This document shows, one piece after another, positions 22,267 to 33,798 of a stretch of 64,000 nt of DNA. The position numbers and the translations under genes were made by a program. This stretch comes from Hypnocyclicus thermotrophus (GTDB taxonomy: Bacteria > Fusobacteriota > Fusobacteriia > Fusobacteriales > Fusobacteriaceae), in contig NZ_SOBG01000006.1 of assembly GCF_004365575.1 (NCBI RefSeq), forward strand, positions 1 through 64,000, in the 5' to 3' direction. Position 1 is the first letter of the stretch, and each line of letters opens with the position of its first letter. The notes under the pieces are model-generated. The model saw only the letters and a program-made list of their open reading frames with translations. It was not told the DNA's origin and made no database searches.

Positions 22267-24921
22267 CTATTTAAAACTTTCCAAATTGGCTTTTAATTTA
22301 GATAATTTATCTTCATATTCTTTTTGTATTTTTTTCTCTCTTTCTATAATTGCAGTTGGGGCTTTTGAAACAAATTTTTCATTATTTAACTTACCATTTA
22401 CCTTAGCTAACTCTTTTTCTATTTTCTCTATTTGCATAGTTATTTTTTTAATTTCTGCATCCAAATCTAATATTCCTTCTAAAGGTACATATAGTTCACT
22501 TCCATTTGCTACTCTAAATCCTGAACTTGCTGGTCTTTCCATATTTCTTCCGTATTTTAAATTAGATAATTTTGCCAGATTTTTTATAAAAATACTATTT
22601 TCTTCTAATACTTTTAATTCGTTTTCTACACTACTTTTTATTAAAACTTCTAAATCTTTTGCTGGTGATATATTCATTTCTGCTCTTATATTTCTTATTG
22701 AACTTACTAATGTTTGAATATATTCAAAATCTTTTTCAATGTTTTTATTAATTTTATTATTATTTAATACTGGATAAGCTTCTAACATAATAGTTTCTTT
22801 TCCAGTATTTAAATTTTGCCAAATTTCTTCTGTTATAAACGGCATAAATGGATGTAATAATCTAAGCCCTTTTTCTAATATATCCCAAAGAACATATTGA
22901 GCTGTTTTTTTACCTATTTCATCATTTGAATTATATAATCTTATTTTAGCTATTTCTACATACCAATCACAAAAATCTCCCCTTAAAAATTCATATACTA
23001 TTTTAGCTGCTTCATCTAAAATATGTTTTTCTAATTTTTCATTAACTTCTTTAATTGTAGTATTTAATCTTGAATATATCCATTTATCGACTAACTCAAG
23101 ATTTAACTCATCTTTATTTATACTATTCTTATCAAAACCTTCTAGATTCATAAGTACAAATCTTGATGCATTCCATATCTTATTAGCAAAATTTCTTCCC
23201 ATTTCAATAAGTTTTTCAGAAAAAAATACATCTTGACCTTGAGAAGTATTATATATCATTGTAAACCTAATAGCATCTGCCCCATATTTTTCTATTAAAT
23301 CAAGAGGATCTGGAGAATTTCCTAATGATTTCGACATTTTTCTACCTTGTTCATCTCTTACTATACCATGTAAGTACACTGTTTTAAATGGTACTTCTTT
23401 CATTTCATATAATCCCATCATTATCATTCTAGCAATCCAAAAAAATAATATATCTGCTCCTGTTACTATTGTTGCTGTTGGATAAAACATATCTAATTCA
23501 GGTGTTTTTTCCGGCCATCCCATAGTTGAAAAAGGCCAAAGTGCTGATGAAAACCATGTATCAAGTACATCTGTTTCTTGAGTAAGTTCTACTTCTTTAC
23601 CAAATTTTTCTTTTGCTTTAGCTTTAGCTTCTTCCATATTTCTAGCTACAAACATCGTTCCATCTTCTGCATAATATGCTGGTATTCTATGTCCCCACCA
23701 TATCTGTCTAGAAATACACCAATCTCTTATATTTTCAAGCCAATTAAAATATACTTTTTCCCATCTTTTAGGAATTATTTTTACTTCACCATTTCTTACT
23801 ACTTCAAGTGCTTTTTCAGCAAGAGGTTTCATTTTTACAAACCATTGTTTTGATACTCTAGGTTCTACTACTGTATCGCATCTATAGCAATGTCCTACAG
23901 CGTGATTATGAACTTTACTTCCTACTAATAATCCTAATTCTTCAAGATCTTTTAAAATTTCTTTTCTTGCTTCAAATCTATCAAGTCCTTTATATTTTCC
24001 ACCATTTTCATTTATCTTTCCAGTATCTGTCATTATATTTAAAATTTCTAAATTTTGTCTTTCTCCTACTTCAAAATCATTAGGATCATGTGCTGGTGTC
24101 ATTTTTACTACACCTGTCCCAAATTCCATATCTACATAATCGTCTGCTACTATTGATATTTCTCTATTTAATAATGGTAAAACAACTGATTTCCCTATAA
24201 GATGTTTATATCTTTCATCTTCTGGATGAACAGCTACCCCTGTATCACCAAGCATAGTTTCTGGTCTTGTAGTAGCTATTACTAAATAATCTTCACTATC
24301 TTTTATAGGATATTTTATTTCCCATATTCGTCCTTCTTTATCTATATGCTCTACTTCATCATCAGCAAGTGCTGTAGTACATCTAGGACACCAATTCACC
24401 ATATATTCCCCTTGATAAATAAGTCCATCTTCATATAATTTTATAAAAATCTCTTTAACTGCATCTGAAAGTCCCTCATCCATTGTAAATCTTTCTCTAT
24501 CCCAATCAAGAGAAGCACCTAATTTTCTAAGTTGTTTAGTTATTATTCCACCATGCTCTTCTTTCCATTTCCATACTTCTTCTATGAATTTCTCTCTTCC
24601 TAAATCTTCTTTCGTTAAATTTTCAGTAGCTAATTTTCTTTCTACTTTATTTTGAGTAGCTATCCCTGCATGATCAGTTCCTGGCATCCATAAAGTATTA
24701 TATCCACTCATTCTTTTCCATCTTACAAGTGTATCTTGAATAGAATTATTTAATACATGCCCCATATGTAAAATTCCTGTTACATTTGGTGGTGGAATAA
24801 CTATACTATATCCCTCTTTTTCGTTATCTAATGTAGCCGCAAAATATTTATTTTTTTCCCATTTTTTATACCACTTATCCTCAATTTCATTTGGAGAATA
24901 AGTTTTAGCCATATCTTTCAT
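22267..24921 (-). CDS. valS: valyl-tRNA synthetase
   Basis: An 884-residue class I synthetase charging tRNA(Val). The HMGH form of the HIGH motif is at 52-55 (VTGILHMGHVLNN) and KMSKS is at about 526-530 (GRKMSKSLGNS). The CP1 editing domain lies between them, with the Cys-containing zinc knuckle WCPRC. The anticodon-binding helical domain and the C-terminal coiled-coil arm (LDAEIKKITMQIEKIEKELAKVNGKL) are complete. The start is ATG 24921 with AAGGAGGAG upstream. It is monocistronic. Expression appears to be set by a leader-peptide attenuator at 24968-25122, described separately. Confidence 0.97.
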   Translation of the reverse strand: MKDMAKTYSPNEIEDKWYKKWEKNKYFAATLDNEKEGYSIVIPPPNVTGILHMGHVLNNSIQDTLVRWKRMSGYNTLWMPGTDHAGIATQNKVERKLATENLTKEDLGREKFIEEVWKWKEEHGGIITKQLRKLGASLDWDRERFTMDEGLSDAVKEIFIKLYEDGLIYQGEYMVNWCPRCTTALADDEVEHIDKEGRIWEIKYPIKDSEDYLVIATTRPETMLGDTGVAVHPEDERYKHLIGKSVVLPLLNREISIVADDYVDMEFGTGVVKMTPAHDPNDFEVGERQNLEILNIMTDTGKINENGGKYKGLDRFEARKEILKDLEELGLLVGSKVHNHAVGHCYRCDTVVEPRVSKQWFVKMKPLAEKALEVVRNGEVKIIPKRWEKVYFNWLENIRDWCISRQIWWGHRIPAYYAEDGTMFVARNMEEAKAKAKEKFGKEVELTQETDVLDTWFSSALWPFSTMGWPEKTPELDMFYPTATIVTGADILFFWIARMIMMGLYEMKEVPFKTVYLHGIVRDEQGRKMSKSLGNSPDPLDLIEKYGADAIRFTMIYNTSQGQDVFFSEKLIEMGRNFANKIWNASRFVLMNLEGFDKNSINKDELNLELVDKWIYSRLNTTIKEVNEKLEKHILDEAAKIVYEFLRGDFCDWYVEIAKIRLYNSNDEIGKKTAQYVLWDILEKGLRLLHPFMPFITEEIWQNLNTGKETIMLEAYPVLNNNKINKNIEKDFEYIQTLVSSIRNIRAEMNISPAKDLEVLIKSSVENELKVLEENSIFIKNLAKLSNLKYGRNMERPASSGFRVANGSELYVPLEGILDLDAEIKKITMQIEKIEKELAKVNGKLNNEKFVSKAPTAIIEREKKIQKEYEDKLSKLKANLESFK

Positions 24922-24967: not shown

Positions 24968-24996
24968 AAAAAAAACAGCTATATAGAATAGCTGTT
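24968..24996 (-). terminator. intrinsic terminator in the valS leader (attenuator stem 3:4)
   Basis: On the minus strand AACAGCTA (24996-24989) and TAGCTGTT (24981-24974) pair perfectly around TTCTATA and run into eight Ts. It lies 46 bases before the valS start codon, so it must be regulated. Part of its 5' arm and loop, CTATTCTATA (24991-24982), is shared with the antiterminator. Confidence 0.85.
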
Positions 24997-25096
24997 AATT
25001 GACTTTTTAATAAATTTTGATAAAATCAATTCTTAGCATGAGTCATAACTATTCTATAATTATTATTTTAAAAATAATATATTATTTTTTACGACT
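24982..25096 (-). promoter_or_regulatory. valS transcription attenuator: competing RNA stems
   Basis: Segment 1 (AGTCGTAA, 25096-25089, the Val-Val codons of the leader peptide) can pair over 8 bp with segment 2b (TTATGACT, 25048-25041). Segment 2 (TATAGAATAG, 25058-25049, plus TGACT of 2b) can instead pair with segment 3 (AGTCA at 25004-25000 and CTATTCTATA at 24991-24982, 10 plus 5 bp). Segment 3 alternatively enters the terminator stem. Stalling at valine codons would mask segment 1, free segment 2 for segment 3, and prevent termination. The pairings are read from the sequence; the regulatory outcome is inferred from classical amino-acid attenuators. Confidence 0.75.
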
Positions 25097-25122
25097 TTGA
25101 CCACTGCTAAAAATTCTATCAT
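25063..25122 (-). CDS. valS leader peptide, valine-rich
   Basis: A 19-codon frame, MIEFLAVVKVVKNNILFLK, ending in TAA at 25065-25063. AAGGAG (25138-25133) lies ten bases before its ATG. Codons 7, 8, 10 and 11 are GTG GTC AAA-flanked GTC GTA, four valines within five codons. GTC and GTG look uncommon in this AT-rich genome. The block lies inside segment 1 of the attenuator. The stop codon lies only about five bases before segment 2, so a terminating ribosome would mask segment 2 and favour the terminator. No independent function is expected of the peptide; translation is the sensor. Confidence 0.8.
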   Translation of the reverse strand: MIEFLAVVKVVKNNILFLK

Positions 25123-25170
25123 AGTTTATTATCTCCTTAAAACAAAAAAATTATACTAAAAGATAATATC

Positions 25171-25199
25171 AGAATAACATTTTTTTATTTTTTTGTCAA
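25171..25199 (-). promoter_or_regulatory. valS promoter
   Basis: Minus strand TTGACA, 17 bases, TATTCT with TG upstream of the -10. Transcription would begin near 25164, giving a leader of about 240 nt that contains the leader peptide and attenuator. Confidence 0.65.
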
Positions 25200-33676: not shown

Positions 33677-33692
33677 CTAACTAAATATAAAA

Positions 33693-33769
33693 ACTTTCAC
33701 TCATAGAAGATTGATTTACGGTCAATCGTAGAAACACCAATCCTTATTATTGGCTTATATGAATGAAGT
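33693..33769 (-). promoter_or_regulatory. purine riboswitch aptamer, guanine class
   Basis: Read on the minus strand, all core elements are present: P1 (ACTTCATTC with GAGTGAAAGT, one bulge), J1/2 ATATAA, P2 (GCCAAT/ATTGGT) with loop AATAAGG, J2/3 GTTTCTAC, P3 (GATTGA/TCAATC) with loop CCGTAAA, and J3/1 TTCTAT. The GG and CC needed for the loop-loop contact are there. A C occupies the ligand-pairing position in J3/1 (CTAT), which specifies guanine or hypoxanthine rather than adenine. With the terminator at 33629-33676 it should repress guaA transcription when guanine is abundant. Confidence 0.92.
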
Positions 33770-33798
33770 ATTCATTATTCTATTTTTAAATTTATAAG

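Follow-up and report, generated by a model that had tools for sequence, protein, structure and literature searches.

The question raised by this locus is how valS is controlled in Hypnocyclicus thermotrophus, an organism that an earlier note on this DNA took to be a fusobacterium, in agreement with its relatives and with the valS protein tree. The window (the whole stretch of 64,000 nucleotides that was analysed) carries valS on the minus strand (22267..24921, 884 aa, SD AGGAGG), and an NCBIfam model assigns the name valine--tRNA ligase to its product with a score above cut-off. The leader region (25199-24921, minus strand) is bounded by valS itself and by the terminator of another gene, which judging by its sequence would encode a CoA-disulfide reductase/rhodanese-like protein. 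The interpretation put forward in the earlier note, a valine-sensing leader-peptide attenuator on valS, is supported by conservation, compensatory changes and predicted folding, and we consider it about 0.92 probable that valS is governed by transcription attenuation through a translating ribosome, with the four segments of the classical design.

The elements of this leader all lie on the minus strand. A promoter of sigma-70 type, TTGACA-17-TATTCT with TG ahead of the -10 element, occupies 25171..25199 (-35 at 25199-25194, -10 at 25176-25171) and the transcript is expected to start near 25164; a comparable promoter is found right before the leader in genome G001 and in genera g10 and g14. It is followed by a leader ORF of 19 codons and a TAA stop, MIEFLAVVKVVKNNILFLK* (25063..25122), with an SD sequence AAGGAG at 25138-25133, ten bases before the ATG. 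Codons 7-11 (25090..25104) read GTG GTC AAA GTC GTA, four of the five being valine. The final two of these valine codons build segment 1 (AGUCGUAA, 25089..25096), as defined by folding and alignment, and its partner is segment 2 (UAUAGAAUAGUUAUGACU, 25041..25058). Helix 1:2 joins AGTCGTAA (25096-25089) to TTATGACT (25048-25041) through 8 bp including one G-U. The other part of segment 2, TATAGAATAG (25058-25049), pairs with CTATTCTATA (24991-24982) of its antiterminator partner, segment 3 (AGUCAAUUAACAGCUAUUCUAUA, 24982..25004), to give helix 2:3 of 10 bp plus TGACT:AGTCA. Segment 3 also includes the 5' arm of an intrinsic terminator (24968..24996), in which 24996-24988 pairs with 24982-24974 over 9 bp around the five-base loop UCUAU, followed by eight U. 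Helices 1:2, 2:3 and 3:4, the last being the terminator with its U-run, are mutually exclusive, support for 2:3 being the weaker. The promoter, the 19-codon frame with its AAGGAG and the four valines are thus all present as the earlier note described them, and of its three exclusive stems 1:2 and 2:3 are as it gave them, while the terminator has 9 bp and not 8. Its placing of the valine codons in segment 1 is true in every genus with a valS leader.

In the proposed mechanism RNA polymerase would start near 25164 and be followed by a ribosome translating the 19-codon leader. With ample Val-tRNA(Val) the ribosome would reach the stop codon and cover segment 2, leaving segment 3 free to form the terminator, and transcription would stop around position 24968. 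A shortage of charged tRNA(Val) would instead stall the ribosome on GUG GUC. GUC GUA, where it would occupy segment 1 and leave segment 2 free; helix 2:3 would then form as segment 3 leaves RNA polymerase, no terminator would arise and valS would be transcribed. If the leader were not translated at all, helix 1:2 would form and lead to termination.

For comparison, valS upstream regions were gathered from Fusobacteriaceae and from the remaining Fusobacteriota. The order of SD-led, Val-rich leader, terminator and valS is shared by each of the 14 genomes with a readable valS 5' end in genera g1, g8, g10 and g14, the terminators of g8 and g10 and the g10 leader of genome G044 having been identified by eye; no Val-rich leader was seen outside these four genera in the upstream regions examined from the family and the rest of the phylum. 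The peptides differ between genera (MIEFLAVVKVVKNNILFLK, MPKNRVVKVVVKQTS, MLKVVEVRRNSKTI and MKRVEVKVNHILIKLI) and are all Val-rich, with 2-5 valine codons per leader across the 14 genomes. The earlier note had named the lack of a conserved short frame or stems in related genomes as grounds for refutation; the relatives in fact keep a short Val-rich frame before valS, with stems that covary. One of the genomes, G040, was recognised as Ilyobacter polytropus DSM 2926 from part of its second contig, which is 100% identical to the plasmid of that strain, and genera g3 and g6 could be linked to Cetobacterium and Fusobacterium, respectively. In several genera that have no leader, valS lies closely behind another coding region, read from its sequence as an EngB-like gene. 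The leader-bearing genera are early branches of the valS protein tree, on which leader presence needs three changes; since these are compatible with one origin and two losses, the valS element looks ancestral to Fusobacteriaceae and lost in Cetobacterium and Fusobacterium.

Pairing was assessed in an alignment (A2) of nine distinct valS leader sequences. For helix 1:2 the paired share is 94.4% of cells, with slid controls reaching no more than 47%; it shows compensatory changes, its strands varying by genus: AGUCGUAA:UUAUGACU in g1, AGUCGUAG:CUAUGACU in g8, and pairs that include GUCAGAA:UUCUGGC in g10. Helix 3:4 is paired in 94.9% of cells (slid controls at most 61%), and five of its nine pairs have changed on both sides across genera, that is, in a compensatory manner. 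Helix 2:3 is paired in 83.8% of cells, a score equalled by one slid control, and its covariation is weak, consisting mainly of G-U exchanges. When strands were swapped between genera, the native pairs were best or near best for most helices.

The order of events was modelled by snapshot folding of the RNA as it stands once segment 3 is complete and segment 4 has yet to be made, with the part covered by the ribosome taken out. For this genome the predicted probability of helix 2:3, a helix chosen for the snapshot after inspection, is 0.94-0.95 with the ribosome on the valine codons, 0.00 with the ribosome at the stop and 0.00 without a ribosome. The same three-state pattern is predicted for 12 of the 14 leaders, G044 and G057 deviating, and in these 12 helix 2:3 falls to about zero with a modelled ribosome at the stop, a codon placed, as in the earlier note, just before segment 2, so that a ribosome there would cover that segment. 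In a version of the snapshot that is agnostic to the helix, the amplitude exceeds all of 200 shuffles in this genome (G000), G042 and G053; shuffles do equally well in 5/200 cases for G001 and 3/200 for G040, and the result for G045 is not significant, with 31/200 shuffles as good. Ending this snapshot two bases earlier, with segment 3 incomplete, gives no clear signal in g1 and g8.

Of the competing explanations, the one that survives best, although very improbable, is a constitutive partial terminator that trims transcription behind a short ORF present by chance, the valine codons being meaningless. Small ORFs are plentiful in AT-rich DNA, and equilibrium folding of the full-length leaders lets the terminator win nearly everywhere and leaves the switch invisible in most of them. 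Such dominance is what folding models would be expected to give where kinetics decide, and the argument for attenuation rests on co-transcriptional order. A chance ORF is also hard to reconcile with 14 genomes that keep a Val-rich frame despite different peptides, and with compensatory changes in helix 1:2, for which a plain terminator has no need. An SD-led ORF with four valines in six residues appeared in 0 of 5000 dinucleotide shuffles of the valS leader (300 bases). The terminator scan of the leader region returned 2 sites against 0.0 expected, and the fold z-score of the leader is -3.3. The cognate leaders that thrS, tyrS and trpS also possess (see below) likewise speak against chance. 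A blind scan for short SD-led ORFs before terminators covered the window and a further 400 kb of the same genome (464 kb, about one fifth of the genome, with 436 CDS), in stretches picked to include several synthetase genes, which makes it a specificity check rather than a census. There, 43 CDS have a terminator 5-170 bases upstream, and the top two matches combining a terminator with a same-residue leader are tyrS (YYYSYYY; MHRNYYYSYYYNKINKK) and valS; the remaining matches with four alike residues contain Ser, Lys or Gly and have no evident link to the gene.

The attenuator reading is also consistent with the choice of valine codons. Four genes encode tRNA-Val in this genome, all with anticodon UAC (61 tRNAs were detected, equal to the 61 Rfam tRNA matches). 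GUC occurs at an aligned position in all 14 valS leaders, and it makes up seven of the 15 valine codons of four genus representatives, whereas in long ORFs across the window it accounts for 1.6% of valine codons and 1.0 per 1000 of all codons, this genome serving as the sole background (binomial P about 2e-9). As the rarest valine codon here, read by wobble by the sole tRNA-Val(UAC), GUC probably sharpens the stall, and the preference for it may partly serve pairing in helix 1:2. In the thrS leader of the same genome the threonine codons are all ACC (0.8 per 1000).

The codons behind the valine cluster bear on a second explanation, slightly less probable again than the chance ORF, in which the leader would act as a sensor of general starvation or of several residues and the Leu, Ile and Lys codons would matter too. 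The 3' part of the leader peptide here is KNNILFLK, and in other genera Lys, Arg or Ile codons come after the valine cluster; valine, however, is the residue whose enrichment every one of the 14 leaders shares, and it is the residue that the product of valS serves. In the model stalls at later codons would keep helix 2:3 as well, so the leader may respond to other residues to a minor degree. Control of valS by a T-box or another tRNA- or ligand-binding riboswitch is highly improbable here: although in Firmicutes valS is usually under T-box control (PMC2494555) and T-box-like elements occur elsewhere in this genome and its relatives, none of the Rfam families, T-box and other riboswitches included, matches the valS leader at the gathering or at a lenient threshold, in line with the earlier note, which saw no T-box consensus.

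The his, trp, leu, ilv and pheST attenuators of gamma-proteobacteria have the classical leader-peptide layout. The valS leader resembles them in its SD-led ORF with clustered cognate codons, its alternative helices 1:2, 2:3 and 3:4, the stop before segment 2 and the terminator before the gene; it differs in the gene, valS, the phylum, Fusobacteriota, and the use of the rare, wobble-read GUC, the comparison being one of layout and not of sequence similarity. Leader-peptide control of synthetase-type genes has been described or predicted before: a study that proposes attenuators for the Streptomyces genes trpS and leuS cites pheST (PMC1262725), hisS and hisZ have candidate leader-peptide attenuators in bacilli (PMC2965389), and cysS follows a predicted leader peptide, uORFC-8-2, in Rhodobacterales (PMC8632094). 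The Streptomyces, bacilli and Rhodobacterales cases share with valS a synthetase-type gene under a predicted cognate leader but belong to other phyla and other amino acids, none of those in the three papers being on valS. The earlier note's suggestion that the system is undescribed fits the literature searched, which covers subscription papers thinly and gave no relevant report of a leader peptide on valS or in fusobacteria; leader-peptide control of synthetases is itself known. With regard to its nature we have high confidence that the valS element is of this known kind, to which the gene and the phylum are new. It widens the range of aminoacyl-tRNA synthetase genes under leader-peptide control to include valS, and that of phyla to include Fusobacteriota.

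The valS switch belongs to a larger, family-wide set, a point that the earlier note missed. Leaders of tyrS with four to six Tyr codons and a terminator are found in 13 of 15 genomes from six genera, and thrS leaders with a terminator in eight genomes of g1, g8, g9, g13 and g14, those of g1 having two Thr only. The trpS leaders with a terminator contain WWW or W..WW in g8 and g14 and WW in g6 (Fusobacterium). No comparable leader lies directly upstream of ileS and leuS in this genome or of serS, proS, hisS and pheS in three genera, and trpS of this genome has no leader within 450 bases. In genome G042 the trpS leader reads TGGATACACTGATGG as against TGGATACACTGGTGG in G040, a Trp codon having become a stop, and it may be decaying. 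In the majority of the Thr, Tyr and Trp leaders the control codons sit near the stop and are followed by a P:Q hairpin, a repeat of the P arm (P') and the terminator. The P/P' arm is often UUGUAUC, and no such repeated arm is present in the valS leaders. A generic sequestration score run on the Tyr and Thr leaders gave no decisive result. In this five-segment design a stalled ribosome would leave P free, P:Q would form and P' would open the terminator; a ribosome at the stop would cover P, Q:P' would form and transcription would end.

The same arrangement bears on RF04312 (SRC-39-1, the 'trpB motif'), whose authors described it as a strong candidate riboswitch in Firmicutes and Fusobacteria, mostly located before an amino-acid-type ABC transporter, and left room for a classic attenuator (PMC11109978); the searchable literature gave no later paper on it. 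Its model matches the Q:P' hairpin and terminator of the tyrS leaders of two relatives with 41-43 bits (gathering score 59), and 47 of 61 family genomes contain matches at E <=0.01, every one below the gathering score, that of this genome being at G000:C3:47717-47813. Thirty loci were taken for leader inspection, and at 22 of them the match is preceded by an SD-led ORF carrying four to six His codons (e.g. MKVFKSLNNTIHHHHHR). These His leaders precede an amino-acid ABC substrate-binding protein or HisZ; at other loci aromatic codons (SFWYFYYF) precede DAHP synthase (aroF), Trp codons TrpX and Pro codons PutP. For representative genes, NCBIfam models place TrpX, PutP and DAHP synthase above cut-off, and the best models for HisZ and the amino-acid binding proteins are sub-threshold. 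Like the valS leader, RF04312 is a terminator-based 5' element behind cognate leader peptides in Fusobacteriaceae; it differs in its design of five segments rather than four, and its covariance model finds no match in the valS leader.

Folding of the five-segment design gives a graded picture. The terminator arm is predicted to be held with a probability of 0.95 with a stalled ribosome against 0.32 with the ribosome at the stop for the His leader of this genome, and 0.62 against 0.02 for aroF. Support is modest for hisZ (0.53 against 0.18) and for an element of Fusobacterium vincentii (0.74 against 0.54), and the other His transporter leaders give none (0.48-0.56 stalled, 0.42-0.53 at the stop). 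In Fusobacteriaceae RF04312 is probably a leader-peptide attenuator, the leader-peptide nature of its loci being well supported and the exact switch less so. It is likely that in this family cognate leader peptides govern the charging, uptake and synthesis of many amino acids, through the four-segment design of valS and a five-segment design at thrS, tyrS, trpS, hisZ, aroF, trpX, putP and amino-acid transporter genes, and that RF04312 is the 3' half of the latter and binds no ligand. This reading is more novel than the valS element and would give a riboswitch candidate of over 900 reported members a simple identity that can be tested, recognisable by a short ORF with a run of the cognate codon upstream of the Rfam boundary.

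The plasmid records searched for Firmicutes copies of RF04312 gave a single useful record, from F. vincentii. It holds the only gathering-level member seen (strain SB055, 68.5 bits, L380:2999-3118), whose leader MKQILTTTMRYWQNWHR contains Trp and whose P, Q and P' follow in the same order as in the relatives. No gene was recognised directly downstream, and the element is possibly a remnant. At 2.1 Mb the record, though labelled a plasmid, has the size of a chromosome.

T-boxes (RF00230) read tRNA charging and in that way control valS in Firmicutes. An older survey counted none in the Fusobacteria/Thermotogae group (PMC2494555), and most of the family's T-box matches score below cut-off. A single T-box-like element in this genome (G000:C1:27680-27857), below the gathering score, precedes an aspartate--tRNA(Asn) ligase gene with a gatC-like gene behind it, and I. 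polytropus has such elements, also below the gathering score, before asnB and asnS. As the T-box-like elements examined adjoin Asn/Asp genes, a division of labour suggests itself in these genomes, with T-boxes for Asn/Asp and leader peptides for Val, Thr, Tyr, Trp and His; with both kinds of element present together, two answers to one problem can be compared within one cell. Elsewhere in the window, a purine riboswitch (RF00167, 67.5 bits) occupies 33684-33782 on the minus strand, directly 5' of an apparent guaA.
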